Source: a virus. Taken from it: a stretch of 23,322 nt of DNA. The stretch is taken from IMG/VR virus record IMGVR_UViG_3300024518_003623, positions 1 to 23,322 of that record. One strand, 5' to 3'. This document shows positions 1-23,322 of the stretch, piece by piece (position 1 is the first letter of the stretch; each line of letters starts with the position of its first letter). Under the pieces are notes generated by a model, which searched no databases, had not been told where the DNA came from, and saw nothing but the letters and a program-made list of their open reading frames with translations. The position numbers and the translations under genes were made by a program.

Positions 1-265
1 CGTTAGTGTCCGCATTACTTTCGTATTTAGTCTTAATGCTGGCGGCGGTTTCGTCGCCGGTGTTAGTGCCGGACTGCTGAGCAACGACGGCCTTTTCTGC
101 ATCGGTGTAGGCGTTAGTGTCCGCATTACTTTCGTATTTAGTCTTAATGCTGGCGGCGGTTTCGTCGCCGGTGTTAGTGCCGGACTGCTGAGCAACGACG
201 GCCTTTTCTGCATCGGTGTAGGCGTTAGTGTCCGCATTGCTTTCGTATTTAGTCTTAATGCTGGC
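1..265. repeat. 111-bp in-frame tandem repeat, left array (tail fibre)
   Basis: The same 111-bp unit restarts at 1, 112 and 223 with almost no differences. The last copy breaks off at about 265. The period is 37 codons, so copy-number changes keep the fibre in frame. The array continues beyond the window edge. Confidence 0.95.
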
Positions 266-778
266 AGGCGTCTCGGCCGTGCTCTCGCCTTGCTGCTTAA
301 TCCACTCCTGGTCTGAGCTGTCGAATATGTATTTCTCTACGTCCTGGCCTGGGCCGGCGTCCACATACGCATAGGCTCCCGCCGGCGCGGTGGGGTGCGC
401 CAGTTGTAGGGCGGCTAGTGTGGGGTACTCTCCCAGGAAAAGCGAATCCTCCAGGCCTGCGAGTTTGGCCTTTTCTGCATCGGTGTAGGCGTTAGTGTCC
501 GCATTGCTTTCGTATTTAGTCTTAATGCTGGCGGCGGTTTCGTCGCCGGTGTTAGTGCCGGACTGCTGAGCAACGACGGCCTTTTCTGCATCGGTGTAGG
601 CGTTAGTGTCCGCATTGCTTTCGTATTTAGTCTTAATGCCGGCGGCGGTTTCGTTAACTGCGCCCACTATCGGGTTAAGCGGGTCCGTGTTGTCTACGGT
701 CGGGCCCGTTACGCTCTCCACGCCTGCGCCTGGTGTGCCCCCACCCGCTGGGCCTAAATCGGGATAAAAGCCGCTCAT
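1..778 (-). CDS. Tail fibre or other tail-appendage protein, N-terminal part (runs off left edge)
   Basis: The frame is open from ATG at 778 to the left edge (259 codons), so the C-terminus is missing. After a Gly/Pro-rich start (MSGFYPDLGPAGGGTPGAG) it carries copies of a 37-residue unit containing TDAEKAVVAQQSGTNTGDET and IKTKYESNADTNAY. Sequences of the type NTGDET-IKTKY-NADTNA-TDAEK are a familiar signature of phage tail fibres and appendages, where they form trimeric shaft segments. Between two repeat arrays lies a roughly 50-residue non-repeat insert (LAGLEDSLFLGEYPTLAALQ onward) that resembles small phage carbohydrate-binding or linker domains. The ATG overlaps the stop of the upstream gene in an ATGA arrangement, which supports this start and translational coupling. 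The role in host adsorption is inferred. The receptor-binding tip would lie outside the window. Confidence 0.8.
   Translation of the reverse strand, partial: MSGFYPDLGPAGGGTPGAGVESVTGPTVDNTDPLNPIVGAVNETAAGIKTKYESNADTNAYTDAEKAVVAQQSGTNTGDETAASIKTKYESNADTNAYTDAEKAKLAGLEDSLFLGEYPTLAALQLAHPTAPAGAYAYVDAGPGQDVEKYIFDSSDQEWIKQQGESTAETPASIKTKYESNADTNAYTDAEKAVVAQQSGTNTGDETAASIKTKYESNADTNAYTDAEKAVVAQQSGTNTGDETAASIKTKYESNADTN
467..654. repeat. 111-bp in-frame tandem repeat, right array (tail fibre)
   Basis: Further copies of the 111-bp unit (anchor points at 490 and 601) are separated from the left array by about 200 bp of unique coding sequence. Several single-base differences distinguish copies, for example GCATTGC against GCATTAC. 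Confidence 0.9.
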
Positions 779-3084: not shown

Positions 3085-3504
3085 CTATTCAGGCATGGCG
3101 AAAGTGTCGCCGCCCTGGTTGTTGGTTTCAAGCTCGAAGCTGGCTAAGCCGTAGGACTCCTGGCAGTTCGCGGCCATGTTTTTTAAGGTGTCGACGTCTA
3201 GCTTTTTGGCCGCGTCCACGCCTAAACCTGGGAATTTGTCGTTATTGCCCACTAACTCCGCTAACTCGTCCAGCTCCTGGCCGGCAGCATTCTGCGCGTT
3301 ATTCTCCAACTCCGCCACTTTAGTGGCTATCGGCTCAACGGCTGCCGTGACGGCTGCGGCAATAGCCTCCGCGTTAGTCGCCAGGTCGTCGCCTGTTGCT
3401 TTCGCCTGTAGCTCGGAGTGCTGCGTTAACAGCGACTCGTCGCTTATGTCCTGGTTTACTTGAATGCCTGCGGCTTTCAAAGCGTTAATCATCAATTCGC
3501 GCAT
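3085..3504 (-). CDS. Probable nested scaffold protein from an internal start
   Basis: Codon 301 of the protease-scaffold gene is an ATG (3504-3502) preceded by a strong Shine-Dalgarno sequence GAGAGGG with a 7-nt spacer. It lies exactly at the boundary between the protease-like part and the helical scaffold part. The product would be 139 residues starting MRELMINALKAAGIQVNQ. Lambda C/Nu3 and related phages use the same arrangement to make excess free scaffold. The internal initiation signal is seen in the sequence. Its use is inferred. Confidence 0.6.
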   Translation of the reverse strand: MRELMINALKAAGIQVNQDISDESLLTQHSELQAKATGDDLATNAEAIAAAVTAAVEPIATKVAELENNAQNAAGQELDELAELVGNNDKFPGLGVDAAKKLDVDTLKNMAANCQESYGLASFELETNNQGGDTFAMPE

Positions 3505-4404
3505 GGGGTCGCCCTCTCGCTGGTTTGTTTTAGGTGAATAAGTAACTTTTCGCTCCACTGGGAGCGGTATGCCCACAAGCGTAGCACGTCCGCCGTCTAA
3601 ACGGTAGGGGACCTCGTAGAGGGCGCCGTCCACAGTGAAAACGACGACCTCCGAGAAAACCTCTTCGACATACATGTACTCGCTCGATTGTATTAGGGGT
3701 TCGAGCTCTAGCGCTGAGCGCAGCGCGTCGTTAATGTCTGAGAACGACGTCCCGCTCGCGTTGTCTATCAGCGCTACGGTGCCCGCGTGGACCTCTAAGT
3801 CGTCGCCTTCGTTGTTGACTGCTATGCCGACGCCCTGGTGGGGTTGTGCTGCGCCCACACTATCTAGGAGGATAGCGTCGTGGTCAAAAACCATGCCCCG
3901 AGCTATCCAGGTGTATTGGTCTCCGGCCGCGTTCGTGCGTGGCTCGTCCAAATCCTCCGCGCCTACAAACACACCCACGGAGGTATGTATGGGGCGGGCT
4001 TCGCTGTTTGTTTCTATCTCGACGACACGGTCTAAAAGCCGTTTCCCTCTGTCGCTTTTCTGAGCTTCCGGGACGTTGATAACTTTATCCAGGGCTATGC
4101 GGTCCCCTTCACGGCGGACATTTTCGTTAAATGCCCCCGCGTAGTATTCGTGTATAGCCTGCGGGTCGGTGGCGCTGATAAAGCGGCCGTTAGCGTCCAC
4201 AGGGTGCTCCACAGGGGCCAGGGTGCGGTTAAGCGATAAAATCGCCGCGTCTACCTCCTCAGTGGTGTATAAGCCCCCATTCATTACGACATTGTCAGGA
4301 AGGGTGTGCGAGCTAATGACGATATGTTCTACGCCCTCGCGCGTCTCGCGGCGCACTGCGTCGCGGCGCACTTGTGTAGAACAGTGTAAAAATATTCTTT
4401 TCAT
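3085..4404 (-). CDS. Capsid maturation protease fused to scaffold domain
   Basis: A 439-residue protein between the MuF gene block and the decoration/capsid genes. Residues 25-290 look like a phage head maturation protease of the DUF2213/assemblin-like serine type. A His in VEHP (H67), a His-Thr-Ser in PIHTSVGVF (H140, S142) and a DHDAILLD segment (174-181) are the likely active-site neighbourhood. Residues 300-439 are an Ala/Glu/Gln-rich helical scaffold-like region (EAIAAAVTAAVEPIATKVAE). In such fusions the scaffold part directs capsid assembly and is then degraded. The catalytic assignment is by motif only and should be checked with structure prediction. A second in-frame start at 3504 probably makes the scaffold alone. 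Upstream 4405-4468 is non-coding and A/T-rich. Confidence 0.78.
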   Translation of the reverse strand: MKRIFLHCSTQVRRDAVRRETREGVEHIVISSHTLPDNVVMNGGLYTTEEVDAAILSLNRTLAPVEHPVDANGRFISATDPQAIHEYYAGAFNENVRREGDRIALDKVINVPEAQKSDRGKRLLDRVVEIETNSEARPIHTSVGVFVGAEDLDEPRTNAAGDQYTWIARGMVFDHDAILLDSVGAAQPHQGVGIAVNNEGDDLEVHAGTVALIDNASGTSFSDINDALRSALELEPLIQSSEYMYVEEVFSEVVVFTVDGALYEVPYRLDGGRATLVGIPLPVERKVTYSPKTNQREGDPMRELMINALKAAGIQVNQDISDESLLTQHSELQAKATGDDLATNAEAIAAAVTAAVEPIATKVAELENNAQNAAGQELDELAELVGNNDKFPGLGVDAAKKLDVDTLKNMAANCQESYGLASFELETNNQGGDTFAMPE

Positions 4405-4468: not shown

Positions 4469-4654
4469 CTATATGTAAACGCCCGGAGGTGTCTCCAGGA
4501 TGTCGCTGTCCTCCAGGGGGGCGCCTTCGTCTAGCGATTTTTTGAGTAGCGCAGTAACGCGCTGCTCGTCCTCCTCAACTGCAGCGTAGACCGTCTCTAC
4601 GGTTAGCGTGTGGGGGTATTTTGCTTGGTACTCGATAAAAACGTCTATAAACAT
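4469..4654 (-). CDS. Small unknown protein
   Basis: A 61-residue acidic protein with a Tyr/Val-rich N-terminus (MFIDVFIEYQAKYPHTLTVE) and a helical EEDEQRVTALLKKSLDEG stretch, ending PPGVYI. Its ATG overlaps the stop of the MuF gene (TAATG), so it is probably translationally coupled to it. No family is recognised. The arrangement directly after a gene with a putative enzymatic C-terminal domain would fit an accessory, chaperone or immunity partner, but nothing in the protein itself shows that. Confidence 0.6.
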   Translation of the reverse strand: MFIDVFIEYQAKYPHTLTVETVYAAVEEDEQRVTALLKKSLDEGAPLEDSDILETPPGVYI

Positions 4655-6564
4655 TATTCCATTTGCTCCTTTAATATTTCGACTAAGTTAGGCGCGAACT
4701 CCTGGACAAAAGCATTACCCAGGGGCCCCGCGTCTATTGCGTTAAGACTGAAAACCTGCGCGTATGCTTCTAGGTTTTGGCCGAAGCGTATAGGGCCCCT
4801 CTTAAAATCTCGGTAGTATTTCGCACTATGCCCCCCACCGTGTCGCAGGTTGGTTATTGAGCCCACCAGGTCGGTAACGTGCCCCGCCTCTCGCCATGTC
4901 TCCTGTAGGTAGTACCCGGCTCCTCCATCCCATAGGGCGCTAACATACCCGAGGGGGCGGTTAAACCTCTCGGCTGCCACTATCTCCGCTACCGTCTCTA
5001 GCCGTACCTGCCCGCCCCTGGGCGCCTCTTTGAGTTTATCTACCAGCCCCCTGGCTAGTCCGCCGGGGGTTGTGGCGTCCGCCGCCCAGTCTAATGCGGC
5101 GCGCCCGTCGGCCTTGGCTTCCAGGGACACCTCCCGCACTTTGTTGAGCCACACTATTGAGACCGACCGCTTAGAGTACGCGGGGGCTTTCCCGCCTACG
5201 TCAGACTTATGGGCGTTATAGAATTTTTTATCCCGGTTTTTAATAGCGCGGTCGGCCGCGTGGACTGCGGCGTTATAGCTCGACGTTGCTGTTATCGTAC
5301 CTTTGTGGTCGTCGTAGTAGTGCCCATACTCGTGCCGGTACGTCGCGTCGCCTGGGTTCCCTCCGGGGACGTATTTCTTAGGCATGTTAATAGCTTTAGA
5401 GCCCGGGGAAAAATACGCGCCGTCTTTTTTCTGAGTTACTGCCGGCGTGCCTGCGTCCTCCAGTGCGGCCCGGTAGCGGGGGTCTGTTATCCCGCTCGCC
5501 GCGAACTGGTCGCCTAAAGTGGCCGGGGGTGCCTTGCGCTCCCTCCTGCGCGCCGGTGGGCTGGCTGGCGGAGTAGCTGGCGGAGTAGCTGGCGGAGTAG
5601 CTGGCGGAGTAGCTGGCGGCTCGGGGTCAAAGAATGAGCGCTCCGCTTTTATCTCCTGTTGGAGCTCGATGTCGATAACTTTGCCCTTTTTGTCAATCAG
5701 TACGGACCGCGTCGAGCAGTGGCAGTTGATACGGTTAGCCCCTGTAGCCCACCACTGCCGTTGCTGTGCTGTAGTGTACGCGTTGCCGTGGCGGTTGGCG
5801 TGGTTGGACCGGGTCGTCGGTATTAGCGCAGACAGGTGAAGCGTCCCGGCGCGTAGCCCGCTGATACCTGCCGCGACGTCCACCGCGTCCAGGCGTGCGT
5901 CGTTATACGCCCAGTTGACCTCAGTGTCTGCGATGCGTTTAGCGCTGGAGCGGGACACGTCGAAGCGCTCGCCGATGTTTTTCGCTATCGTCCGGGGCGA
6001 CTCCTTAGCGGAGAGGCCGGCGTTAATGGTTTGGATTACTTGGTCGCTGGTGCGGTCGCTGAGGGTCCTAATGCCGTCGAAGTTACGGACATAAACCTTA
6101 TTGAGTGCGTCCTGGTACTCCTGCGACATTAGGACCGCCTGCACTTCTAAGCGCTGCGGCGTTAGTCCCGCTATTTTTCGGGCCCGGACCACTTCGGAGC
6201 TAATTAGCTGGTTAAACTGGATTACCTCCTCCGCAGACCCCTCCCTGTACGGCGGCTCTAATACCGACTGCCACCACCAGTTAGGGGGCATTCTGTCCAG
6301 CTGGGTCTCGACTAGCTCGTCGTTTATTACGCGGCGGACGCCCCTGTTAACTTGCTCCAACTCGTCGGCAGTTAGCTGGTAATCGTACACCGGGATAACT
6401 TTGCGGTTTACTAGCGGCGTTACGGTGCGGCGCTTGCGCGGTATGTCCTGCAGTATCGCGCGGACTCGCTTTTCTGCGCGGGTGCATCGGTTTTTTAATC
6501 GACGGGAGGCTGTACGGCGGTTTCTAGCCTGCCCGGTCGGGTCCTGCTTAGTCTTTTTTCCCAT
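4654..6564 (-). CDS. MuF-type head morphogenesis protein with C-terminal HExxH (zincin-like) domain
   Basis: A 636-residue protein, much longer than a plain MuF/SPP1 gp7 protein. Residues 60-290 form the MuF region: helical segments, then TTRSNHANRHGNAYTT and the typical RINCHCSTRSVLID Cys-x-Cys end (C281, C283). A flexible linker at 315-340 is built of repeated PPAT units and then a basic RRRERK. Residues 345-636 form a separate domain with HEYGHYYDDH (HExxH at 411-415), the zinc-binding and catalytic motif of metallopeptidases. A candidate third ligand is E599 in NLEAYAQVFSL. MuF proteins bind the portal, are packaged in the head and can be ejected into the cell. MuF fusions to enzyme or toxin domains are known. 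The metallopeptidase call rests on the motif. The start overlaps the previous gene by 17 nt. Confidence 0.85.
   Translation of the reverse strand: MGKKTKQDPTGQARNRRTASRRLKNRCTRAEKRVRAILQDIPRKRRTVTPLVNRKVIPVYDYQLTADELEQVNRGVRRVINDELVETQLDRMPPNWWWQSVLEPPYREGSAEEVIQFNQLISSEVVRARKIAGLTPQRLEVQAVLMSQEYQDALNKVYVRNFDGIRTLSDRTSDQVIQTINAGLSAKESPRTIAKNIGERFDVSRSSAKRIADTEVNWAYNDARLDAVDVAAGISGLRAGTLHLSALIPTTRSNHANRHGNAYTTAQQRQWWATGANRINCHCSTRSVLIDKKGKVIDIELQQEIKAERSFFDPEPPATPPATPPATPPATPPASPPARRRERKAPPATLGDQFAASGITDPRYRAALEDAGTPAVTQKKDGAYFSPGSKAINMPKKYVPGGNPGDATYRHEYGHYYDDHKGTITATSSYNAAVHAADRAIKNRDKKFYNAHKSDVGGKAPAYSKRSVSIVWLNKVREVSLEAKADGRAALDWAADATTPGGLARGLVDKLKEAPRGGQVRLETVAEIVAAERFNRPLGYVSALWDGGAGYYLQETWREAGHVTDLVGSITNLRHGGGHSAKYYRDFKRGPIRFGQNLEAYAQVFSLNAIDAGPLGNAFVQEFAPNLVEILKEQME
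5570..5617. repeat. 12-bp tandem repeat encoding the PPAT linker
   Basis: Four perfect copies of GGAGTAGCTGGC (plus-strand reading), with degenerate copies on both sides, encode Pro-Pro-Ala-Thr units on the minus strand. The array separates the MuF and HExxH parts. It can change length without shifting the frame. Confidence 0.95.
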
Positions 6565-7144
6565 TGCTAGGCCCTGTGCTCAATAGCGTATATGTGAAAG
6601 AGTCGCCGTACAGCGTTGCGGCTTTAGACGCAAGGGCGATAACGATGTCCATGTCGTAGCTACTCGCCAGCACTTGGCAGCCCGCCGACCATTTGCCCAC
6701 CACGGTGCTGGTGCCGTTTTTCCTAGACCTGTGCATATTGAACCCGCCGAGGGTGTTCTCGATTGTTGTCGCGTCCATGTCCAGGACCGCGTCCCTGTTG
6801 TTGTCCCGGTAAACGTTTACGGGTTTTACTTGTACTAGCGCCGGCTGCCCTTTGTGGAGCCCTAGGGAGAATAGCCCCCGGTGTTGCCCCGGCGCCATTA
6901 TGCCTGTGCCCTTCGGGTTTATAGGGTTAACCCGGTAATCGGTGCCCGGGTCGGTAGTGGCAGGGAACGAGAGACAACACTCCGCCCCCTCCCGGTCCTT
7001 AAAAGCTATGTAGACAAAGTCGTTAAAAGTATTGGCTCCGTCTCCTGCGGTGCGCATGCCCACGATATTTAGGTTATATGCGCCGGTGTTAAAAAAGCGG
7101 TACCCGGCCGCCGTGACTATCTGCCTAAGCTCGTGGTATTTCAT
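6548..7144 (-). CDS. L,D-transpeptidase (YkuD)-like protein in the head module
   Basis: A 198-residue protein. Residues 130-160 read GGFNMHRS, then KWSAGCQV: H138, S153, G155 and C156 match the YkuD catalytic pattern of a His followed about 15 residues later by Ser-x-Gly-Cys, where the Cys is the nucleophile. The preceding VNVYRDNNRDAVLDMD and GQHRGLFSLGLHKGQPALVQ fit a beta-rich fold. YkuD enzymes cut and join peptidoglycan stem peptides through a Cys. No signal peptide or membrane segment is visible. The gene sits between portal and MuF with ATGA coupling to the portal stop, so a packaged, cell-wall-acting entry protein is plausible (inference). The HGC usually seen in YkuD is AGC here, so it is a divergent or related family rather than a textbook member. 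Confidence 0.65.
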   Translation of the reverse strand: MKYHELRQIVTAAGYRFFNTGAYNLNIVGMRTAGDGANTFNDFVYIAFKDREGAECCLSFPATTDPGTDYRVNPINPKGTGIMAPGQHRGLFSLGLHKGQPALVQVKPVNVYRDNNRDAVLDMDATTIENTLGGFNMHRSRKNGTSTVVGKWSAGCQVLASSYDMDIVIALASKAATLYGDSFTYTLLSTGPSNGKKD

Positions 7145-8538
7145 GCGTCCAGGTCCTCGCTTGGGGGTGTCTCGTCGTCCTCGTCCTCGTCGACATCGTA
7201 GCCCGCCTCCTCGCGGATTTCGTTATCAGTGAAGGGGACCGGCTGGGCGGACTGGAAGGCTTTCTGGTTTATGTCTGCCATTTTGTCCGCGTTGCTGAGC
7301 TTTTGCTCCTTACTCGGGGCCTGGGCGTCGGGCCACTCTACGGCGTACGCGGTAGCCGGCAAAACGCCAAACTCTACGAGCCAGTCGATAGCAGCGACCA
7401 CTAAATCGGTGGCGAAGTCGTGGCGGCGCGCCTGCACTTGCCCTAAAAATCCGCGCGTGTCCTGGTCCCCGGCTAGCCGCCCTGTCTGGTTGCCGATTAG
7501 GATGTTAACGGGAGTGTCTACGCCTGCCGCGATAGCGTTAAGGCTGTTTGCTGCTGGGCCGGAGGGGTCTGCCATCGCCGCTTGTAAAACTTGCGCCTCC
7601 ATTCCAGGCGTCCACATGGCGCGGCGCATCCTGTTATGTGCAAAGTCATCATATTGCGTGTTGAAGTCGTCGAGCAGGGCCTTATTTTTTCCGGCGGCTG
7701 CGGGGTCTTTTAGATTGAAAACAATATTTTGCGCGGCGTTTTTGTAGAAGCCCTCAGCGCCCCCGCCTAACGTTTTCCGCAAGTCCATTAGGTCGTTATA
7801 AACCGCCTCCAGCACGGGCACGCCATAGACGCCGCCGTTATCACTGCCCTCCGCCGCTATTACAAGGCGGGAGGGGTGGATTCTAAAGTTAGTGGTGGCT
7901 TTCTCGTTGCGGTTGCCGGCGGCCGAGCTGCTGTACTGGTACATGGTGGGCTGGCCGAAGTTGTCGCTCTGCGGGTCCTGGTCTGTCTCGATAACTTCCA
8001 GCTGCGACTCGTAAAGGGGCATCATGTCGACGAGTGCCGCTAGCCCTGGGAGCTTCCCCTCGACTGGCTTGTCTGGGGTTTTGCCGTCCTTAACGCGCAT
8101 AAATAAACCGGCGTAACGGCCCACCCGCTGGCGCGTGTCTAGGCCCCTGAGCCTGCGGTAGAGCCCTTTGCCTCCGCTGGGTGCTTTCTCCTCGTCCCCT
8201 GCGCCTATGAGGGCGGCCAGGTCCCGGTTAAACTGGGGATTATTACTCGTAACAATAGGGTCGTCTAGCCAGGTCTGCTCTGGGTACGCACTCACGGCCC
8301 GCTTAGCGACCCCGAAGCGGCGAAACATATTATAAAAGTTGTAGAATTCCAGGCTGGCCGGGTAGCCATAGTCCTGGTATACGTTGTGCAGCGTGTCCGC
8401 GAAGTCGTAGCCCCCGGAAACCGCCGCCGCTAACTGGTGGCGCATGCTAACGGCCTGCTGGTCCGTTTGGTTGTGCATAAGGACAGCGTCCTGGAGGGCC
8501 ATGTGTGTAAGGCCTACGCTTTTATTGTCTTTTTTCAT
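7141..8538 (-). CDS. Portal protein (DUF1073-like)
   Basis: A 465-residue protein following the large terminase, of normal portal size. The early YNFYNMFRRFGVAKRAVSAYPEQTW segment, the central FRIHPSRLVIAAEGSDNGGVYG, the LRKTLGGGAEGFYKNAAQNI helix and TPVNILIGNQTGRLAGDQDTRGF match the anti-CBASS/DUF1073 group of phage portals. The dodecameric portal forms the DNA channel at one capsid vertex and binds terminase and MuF proteins. The very acidic C-terminal tail (DVDEDEDDE) is typical of an exposed end. Terminase ends 7 nt upstream of the ATG. The Shine-Dalgarno is weak (AGGTACG), which suggests coupling to terminase translation. Confidence 0.88.
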   Translation of the reverse strand: MKKDNKSVGLTHMALQDAVLMHNQTDQQAVSMRHQLAAAVSGGYDFADTLHNVYQDYGYPASLEFYNFYNMFRRFGVAKRAVSAYPEQTWLDDPIVTSNNPQFNRDLAALIGAGDEEKAPSGGKGLYRRLRGLDTRQRVGRYAGLFMRVKDGKTPDKPVEGKLPGLAALVDMMPLYESQLEVIETDQDPQSDNFGQPTMYQYSSSAAGNRNEKATTNFRIHPSRLVIAAEGSDNGGVYGVPVLEAVYNDLMDLRKTLGGGAEGFYKNAAQNIVFNLKDPAAAGKNKALLDDFNTQYDDFAHNRMRRAMWTPGMEAQVLQAAMADPSGPAANSLNAIAAGVDTPVNILIGNQTGRLAGDQDTRGFLGQVQARRHDFATDLVVAAIDWLVEFGVLPATAYAVEWPDAQAPSKEQKLSNADKMADINQKAFQSAQPVPFTDNEIREEAGYDVDEDEDDETPPSEDLDA

Positions 8539-22669: not shown

Positions 22670-23322
22670 ATGCCAATGTTTGATGATTCACACGTAAAAA
22701 TTGAGAACTGCTACCTACTATGGGACGGTATTACTAACCCCGAGAAAAAAGACGACGGGTCTGTTAAGTACTCGCTCAAAGTAGCCATACACCCTAATAA
22801 CCCCGACCTGGGCCTCCTGGACACTATGGCCCAGGCGACGCTTACGGCCAGCGAGTTTAAAGGTGTGCTACCTGCCGGCGGGATTATGCCTATAACTCAG
22901 ATAGCCCCCGGCAAATATAACGACCTTTTCGCCGGTTGGTACCAGGTAAGCCTTAAAACTAACCGCCTCCCTCAGGTTTTCGACGAGGCCGGCGTCGTTA
23001 TGGACCCTACGCAATACGCGCCCTATTTGTACGGCGCTCAGGTGGTCCACGTTGTGGCGCATTGTTTCTCATATAATAACAAGCAGAAAGGGGTTAGCGC
23101 CGGCCTCGACGGTTTTTCTATCGCGGTTAGTCAAAACGCGCAGCGCCACGACTTCGGTGGTGGTGGTGTTGACGTGTCGGGGGCTTTCCCAGGGGCGCAA
23201 GCTGCGCCAGGTATGCAACCGCAAGCTGCGCCAGGTATGCAACCGCAAGCTGCGCCAGGTATGCAACCGCAAGCTGCGCCAGGTATGCAACCGCAAGCTG
23301 CGCCAGGTATGCAACCGCAAGC
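22670..23322 (+). CDS. DUF2815 single-strand DNA-binding protein, C-terminus cut by the window edge
   Basis: Open from ATG 22670 to the right edge (217 codons). MPMFDDSHVKIENCYLLWDG, DDGSVKYSLKVAIHP, GKYNDLFAGWYQVSLKTNRL and YAPYLYGAQVVHVVAHCFSY match DUF2815 phage ssDNA-binding proteins (OB-like), which coat single strands during replication. The last residues before the edge are an eight-residue repeat, QAAPGMQP, at least five times: a flexible tail of unusual length. Such tails in SSBs contact partner proteins through their end. The ribosome-binding site is weak (AGGAAAA), and the preceding gene stops 10 nt upstream. Confidence 0.85.
   Translation, partial: MPMFDDSHVKIENCYLLWDGITNPEKKDDGSVKYSLKVAIHPNNPDLGLLDTMAQATLTASEFKGVLPAGGIMPITQIAPGKYNDLFAGWYQVSLKTNRLPQVFDEAGVVMDPTQYAPYLYGAQVVHVVAHCFSYNNKQKGVSAGLDGFSIAVSQNAQRHDFGGGGVDVSGAFPGAQAAPGMQPQAAPGMQPQAAPGMQPQAAPGMQPQAAPGMQPQ
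23197..23322. repeat. 24-bp in-frame tandem repeat at the right edge (DUF2815 tail)
   Basis: Five identical copies (23197-23316) plus the first 6 nt of a sixth, each coding for eight residues (QAAPGMQP). The repeat is cut by the end of the window, so its full copy number is unknown. Confidence 0.97.

Follow-up and report, generated by a model that had tools for sequence, protein, structure and literature searches.

A probable YkuD-fold lysin and a MuF head protein with an exchangeable C-terminal module share the head operon of an uncultured bacterial virus

In a 23,322-base stretch of DNA from an uncultured bacterial virus (IMG/VR virus record IMGVR_UViG_3300024518_003623, positions 1 to 23,322; hereafter the window), two genes with enzyme-like motifs lie between the portal gene and the rest of the head genes: one encodes a 198-amino-acid (aa) protein and the other a MuF head protein of 636 aa that bears a long extension at its C terminus. 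The locus raises the question of what these two proteins do and whether they act together, as proposed in an earlier sequence-only reading that described them as a matched pair of entry effectors. The reading that we consider probable on balance is that two accessory functions share the head operon: a probable endolysin of the YkuD fold and a MuF fusion bearing an exchangeable effector, the latter followed by a candidate immunity open reading frame (ORF). The head genes lie on the minus strand in the order small terminase, large terminase, portal, 198-aa gene, MuF, a 61-aa ORF, a PHROG 760 protein, decoration protein, and a DUF6260/PHROG 771 structural protein, which we take to be the capsid. 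The portal gene (7141..8538, minus strand; PF06381), the 198-aa gene, MuF, and the 61-aa ORF overlap end to start (by ATGA, by 17 bases, and by TAATG, respectively) and are therefore probably translated as a chain. The window is probably a fragment of a genome; at the DNA level, comparison with 50,697 phage records returned only two matches, of 50–68 bases, in a helicase gene.

The 198-aa gene (6548..7144, minus strand; stretch in overlap with the portal stop included) directly follows the portal gene and encodes predicted catalytic residues H138 (6731-6733), S153 (6686-6688), and C156 (6677-6679), at the positions and in the motif that had been likened to an L,D-transpeptidase active site. 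The pattern H-x(10-30)-S-[HAG]-G-C occurred in 0.12% of shuffles of the 198-aa sequence, and this protein was its sole match in the window, where the summed expectation was 0.02 (here and below, expectations are summed over the 31 window genes called by script). No Pfam family matched the protein; its best family was PHROG 3000, listed as of unknown function (E 7e-31), and PHROG 33083, labeled 'endolysin', also matched (E 5e-19). An AlphaFold2 model was confident (pLDDT 92.1, pTM 0.89), and VIA-align placed 64 of 996 chains at Z≥5 against it (best Z 8.9; 135 residues, root-mean-square deviation 4.1). All 45 entries listed were L,D-transpeptidases or other members of the YkuD / L,D-transpeptidase superfamily (Z 6.5–8.9; 99–167 residues aligned), among them Csd6, Pgp2, and Bd1075. 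Several searches weigh against this fold assignment: Foldseek, run with the same model, retrieved nothing from the PDB at E≤0.001 and ranked unrelated lectins with TM-scores near 0.2 highest, and the Pfam profile PF03734 found nothing in the window. Comparison with PDB sequences likewise yielded chance-like matches only (best E 0.002, to a designed protein). A best VIA-align Z under 9 counts as moderate, but the superfamily entries were not mixed with unrelated folds and the catalytic motif agrees with them. The confident model, the VIA-align entries, and the conserved His/Ser/Cys together support the YkuD-type fold that had been suggested: the protein shares overall fold and the His...Ser-x-Gly-Cys site with members such as LdtMt2, Csd6, Pgp2, and Bd1075, and differs from the superfamily in that it has no PF03734 sequence match.

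The predicted catalytic residues are conserved well beyond the window. One scan of viral contigs returned 51 relatives, and the phage collection held 25 records with relatives, including crAss-like, Bacteroides, and Pseudoalteromonas P2-like phages as well as metagenomic phages larger than 600 kb. His138, Ser153, and Cys156 were kept in 51/51 aligned rows (the window plus 50 of the 51 scan loci; the fragment L052 had no full match), so that the cysteine held up in homologues as the earlier reading would have it. One of the six search patterns behind the aligned relatives, GKWSAGCQ, itself contains the catalytic motif; three loci (L010, L011, and L023) vary at this pattern yet keep all three residues, which were also kept in all six tblastn-found phage relatives that were read (of 25 found) and in L062. 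A reduced alignment (A1) covered 37 of the 51 loci, with near-copies and several long fusions excluded.

What would such a protein do? We consider it most likely a phage endolysin, that is, a YkuD-fold cysteine enzyme that would act on peptidoglycan stem peptides, be made late together with the head proteins, and need a holin encoded beyond the fragment. Among four longer relatives scanned, two (L037 and L043) carry an N-terminal PG_binding_1 domain and two (L008 and L034) carry none; a structural match in BFVD bears the name Lysin; and Pseudoalteromonas phage ACA1, whose gp35 is a relative, has two annotated holins and no annotated endolysin, gp35 being one of several hypothetical proteins and lying between tail tube and tail chaperone. 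PhaLP counts YkuD among lytic domains (PMC8310338). The PHROG 33083 match is a further likeness to phage endolysins; unlike those families, the 198-aa gene sits between portal and MuF with no holin seen alongside, and its best family is one of unknown function. An unlikely alternative is that the protein modifies the cell wall and is not a lysin, for instance as an L,D-carboxypeptidase or a superinfection-exclusion factor. The genomic position of its relatives varies greatly among phages, and its best structural matches include Bd1075, Pgp2, and Csd6, which are L,D-carboxypeptidases that trim the wall and do not lyse it; the PG_binding_1 fusions, the lysin labels (PHROG 33083 and BFVD), and the holins of ACA1 in a genome with no annotated endolysin argue against it.

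The position of the gene bears on the endolysin reading from both sides. In L063, a member of the window's clade, the slot between portal and MuF holds a 132-aa M15-like protein (L063:3390-3788, plus strand; PF13539, E 8e-5, just under the cut-off), and the L060 contig carries a GH108 lysin elsewhere, past genes that gene order marks as putative tail genes; the clade therefore seems to gain and lose lysins, with at least two uses of the gap between portal and MuF. Neighbors of other relatives of the 198-aa protein include terminase, tape-measure, sheath, holin, one endolysin, and replication genes (25 of 65 PHROG families are shown in the neighbor table), and no Pfam portal or MuF match was found among 122 neighbors from 39 other loci (122 of the 147 listed neighbors, near-copies excluded; all but one of the 25 left out were opposite-strand ORFs). 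Three points count against an endolysin: no holin family was found among the ten head-region proteins scanned, the tail/lysis end lying outside the 23-kb fragment; three crAss-like phages carry the relative immediately upstream of terminase and ~6 kb or less from the portal; and a location next to the portal would suit a virion enzyme too. A relative in a Leptospira phage lies ~2 kb from a portal-like gene.

The second gene, MuF (4654..6564, minus strand), starts within the last 17 bases of the 198-aa gene, and its 636-aa product does carry the long C-terminal extension with HEYGH that had been read from it. Residues 1-310 (5635..6564) are an ordinary head protein, matching PF04233 (E 5e-8, above the cut-off) and the head morphogenesis family PHROG 758 (E 5e-68); 338 phage records match it, and among the 60 phage matches listed all fall within residues 4-312. 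No MuF core was found in the genome contigs. A Pro-rich linker of PPAT repeats (residues 311-350; 5515..5634, with a 12-bp tandem array at 5564-5619) leads into the extension (residues 351-636; 4657..5514), which is 286 residues long and has HEYGH at residues 411-415 (5320-5334). The MuF protein of a distant relative (L066:7256-9079, plus strand) is interrupted at the N-C-x-C motif by an insert that resembles an intein (PF14890, E 3e-5, short of the cut-off).

HExxH occurred in 0.9% of shuffles of the extension and the stricter HE[FLIMVWYA]GH in 0.06%; over the window genes the summed expectations were 0.10 and 0.003, with the MuF protein as the sole match, and a chance occurrence is unlikely. 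As third zinc ligand the earlier reading had put forward E599 (4768-4770). The residue is where it was placed, but at 184 residues past H415 it is far away for a zinc ligand and we doubt it; judged by motif, E482 (5119-5121) is the better candidate, lying 67 residues after H415 in an E-x-x-A-D motif (chance of such a match 0.047). This motif presumably resembles that of M48-type peptidases. The ratio of nonsynonymous to synonymous substitution (dN/dS) between the window and locus L002 was 0.05 for the core and 0.11 for the extension, which indicates that the extension is maintained under purifying selection.

Beyond this motif, the extension resembles little. Against Pfam and PHROG it had no convincing match (DUF2486, E 0.03, below the cut-off; PHROG 18947 spans the HEYGH stretch at E 0.08), and a sequence search returned no solved relative. 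Among viral contigs, genome contigs, phages, and plasmids, its only homologues were in L002 and, as a weak C-terminal likeness, in a Nodularia phage, whose gp194 (L166:1168-1725, plus strand; 186 aa) resembles ~60 residues near the end of the extension in the pattern DLVGS.T...GHS..YY...N.EA.A and has no HExxH; this likeness reached E 0.03, and E 0.0012 in a second comparison, for which the ORF had already been selected by BLAST. Matches in Microbacterium and Rhizobium look like chance and were set aside. Three results speak against an enzymatic extension: no family matches it; the AlphaFold2 model, built on a two-row alignment, gave no reliable fold (pLDDT 34.7), because homologues are lacking; and the only close relative, in L002, is 95% identical, so that HEYGH, kept in 2/2 sequences, has its conservation barely probed. 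The identity of the extension as a zincin is thus put forward at the level of the motif. The same lack of a family match, of a usable model, and of more than a single close relative would suit an extension that is not an enzyme but has a structural or DNA-binding role in the head, with an accidental HEYGH; we hold this to be improbable, given how rarely the stricter motif arose in shuffles and given that the region behaves as an effector slot in related phages, being absent from most MuF proteins of the clade and replaced by an ADP-ribosyltransferase in another.

That variation emerged from a survey with the PHROG 771 protein, which yielded 180 loci, of which the best 80 were kept; we treated as the clade the 38 among these 80 (L002, L059, and L085-L120) that have 52–97% identity in this protein. 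The survey includes near-copies or loci on the same contig (L103/L060, L120/L061, L087/L097, L098-L100, and L109/L113). MuF was found in 28 of the 38 clade loci and not in the other 10, some because the contig is cut. The protein usually has ~300 residues in the clade, and 26 of the 28 were short, meaning that no more than 100 residues separate the C-x-C motif from the C terminus (length put L107, which has 288 aa and lacks the motif, in this class; of L086 and L088 the C-terminal part alone is visible). The remaining two are L002, with the HEYGH extension, and L119 (L119:293-2053, plus strand; 52% identity in the PHROG 771 protein), where a Lys/Pro-rich linker is followed by a C-terminal ADPrib_exo_Tox domain (PF03496, E 8.9e-10) and the gene by two small ORFs with no Pfam match. 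Three clade members (L085, L108, and L116) have a portal and a PHROG 760 gene with no MuF detected between them. Locus L062 carries a YkuD gene and a MuF with 57–64% core identity whose Pro-rich extension begins before the contig ends.

Directly downstream of the window's MuF, the 61-aa ORF (4469..4654, minus strand) begins with an ATG that overlaps the MuF stop. It is present in the window and in L002, in 0/4 short-MuF relatives (L059, L060, L061, and L063), and in no other of the 80 survey loci. In the portal-MuF gap of the short-MuF survey relatives there are five small ORFs, of which the four scanned had no Pfam match (the fifth is that of L100). As gene content goes, the MuF module is exchanged within this clade and the 61-aa ORF is linked to the HEYGH version of it. 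The ORF is a candidate immunity or accessory protein, against which it counts that it has no Pfam match. Taken as a mechanism, the MuF minor head protein would carry, past its Pro-rich linker, an effector module that can be exchanged; the fusion may be packed into the particle close to the portal and enter the cell along with the DNA, its probable HExxH metallopeptidase domain may cut a bacterial protein, and the coupled 61-aa protein may protect the producing cell.

The arrangement is close to systems already described. MuF polymorphic toxins of temperate phages (Jamet et al., 2017; PMC5576092) likewise combine a MuF domain with a C-terminal extension (100 residues or more), modules that can be exchanged, and a small downstream ORF; in that work small downstream ORFs followed 89.4% of 191 toxin-type muf genes and 25.5% of 952 short ones, and metallopeptidase domains occurred in 20% of putative MuF toxins. 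The window's protein has the N-terminal MuF domain and an extension above that length that is polymorphic among relatives, and the 61-aa ORF, putative in its immunity role, follows directly and is linked to the HEYGH extension. It differs in that the extension matches no known, named toxin domain; toxicity and immunity are predicted. Bxa, a MuF-linked ADP-ribosyltransferase, is antibacterial by experiment and has two adjacent immunity proteins (PMC11699363); it too is a MuF with a C-terminal effector in the head region beside small genes, with an ADP-ribosyltransferase, as in L119, where the window has HEYGH. HExxH peptidase and MuF domains are also hubs of injected phage multidomain proteins, as described for the zincin-like MPTases of polyvalent proteins (Iyer et al., 2017; PMC5512222); unlike these, the window holds no match to PF18818 (MPTase-PolyVal). 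The extension is probably an antibacterial effector.

Are the two genes, then, a functional pair? The combination had been called undescribed, and within the open-access literature searched this stands for the juxtaposition of the two genes but not for metallopeptidase-type MuF extensions, which are already published (PMC5576092). In a paired entry set, both proteins would be borne in the virion, the YkuD enzyme opening peptidoglycan as the DNA is injected and the MuF extension acting on a protein of the host by cleaving it. In its favor are the overlapping genes at the portal, the presence of the pair in the window, in sister contigs L002/L003 (two separate contigs that may or may not belong to one genome), and in L062 (with a truncated MuF), the lack of a YkuD gene in short-MuF relatives with a visible slot (all 23 of the 23 clade survey loci with portal and MuF visible, plus L063), and the crAss-like and Leptospira phages in which relatives lie near terminase or portal genes. 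On the portal tree, which omits L059 because the contig of that locus does not include the portal, the window groups with L062 as its sister (support 98/97), so that the features they share could go back to one acquisition; we therefore rejected the co-occurrence of YkuD gene and extension as independent evidence. The MuF-core tree recovered neither this pairing nor a firm order within its group of seven. The M15-like enzyme beside a short MuF in L063, and the lack of Pfam portal or MuF matches around the relatives at the 39 other loci, further weaken a paired entry set, which we regard as quite improbable and did not retain as the best reading: the pair is known from no locus other than the window, its sister contigs, and L062, and elsewhere the 198-aa family looks lysin-like, varies in position, and was not found immediately next to a Pfam-recognized portal or MuF. 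The proposal of matched entry effectors thus found no support. Its fullest form, a matched entry kit at the portal in which a YkuD-fold L,D-peptidase for the wall joins a MuF-fused HEYGH effector of an undescribed metallopeptidase family that the 61-aa protein silences in the producer, strikes us as very improbable. What the data show for the YkuD gene and the extension is an association within one lineage, as neighbors by history, and not a joint function.

The 61-aa ORF is followed by the gene for the PHROG 760 protein (3085..4404, minus strand), of unknown function, which is the next head-operon gene in relatives. At one end of the window (1-778, minus strand) lies a repetitive protein, perhaps a tail fiber, with 37-residue repeats (111-bp tandem units at 1-270), cut at the contig end; at the other (23196-23322, plus strand), 5.3 copies of a 24-bp tandem repeat encode a QAAPGMQP tail that ends a weakly Enc34-like single-stranded DNA-binding protein. 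Locus L078 encodes a 266-aa protein of Cys-x-x-Cys repeats (CSDCSRC...; L078:9806-10603, plus strand) with no Pfam match.

Both proteins are best filed as new versions of known kinds, the probable endolysin being in an unusual place. The surprise is moderate, and the useful parts are the assignment of PHROG 3000 as a probable lysin family and the module switching visible within one clade. PHROG 3000, listed as unknown, gains a likely function as a YkuD-fold peptidoglycan enzyme and probable lysin, with relatives that extend to crAss-like, P2-like, and very large phages. Within a single phage clade, the tail of MuF switches between nothing, a HEYGH domain, and an ADP-ribosyltransferase, and the small ORF that accompanies the HEYGH version makes the proposed effector role of MuF directly testable as an effector/immunity pair.

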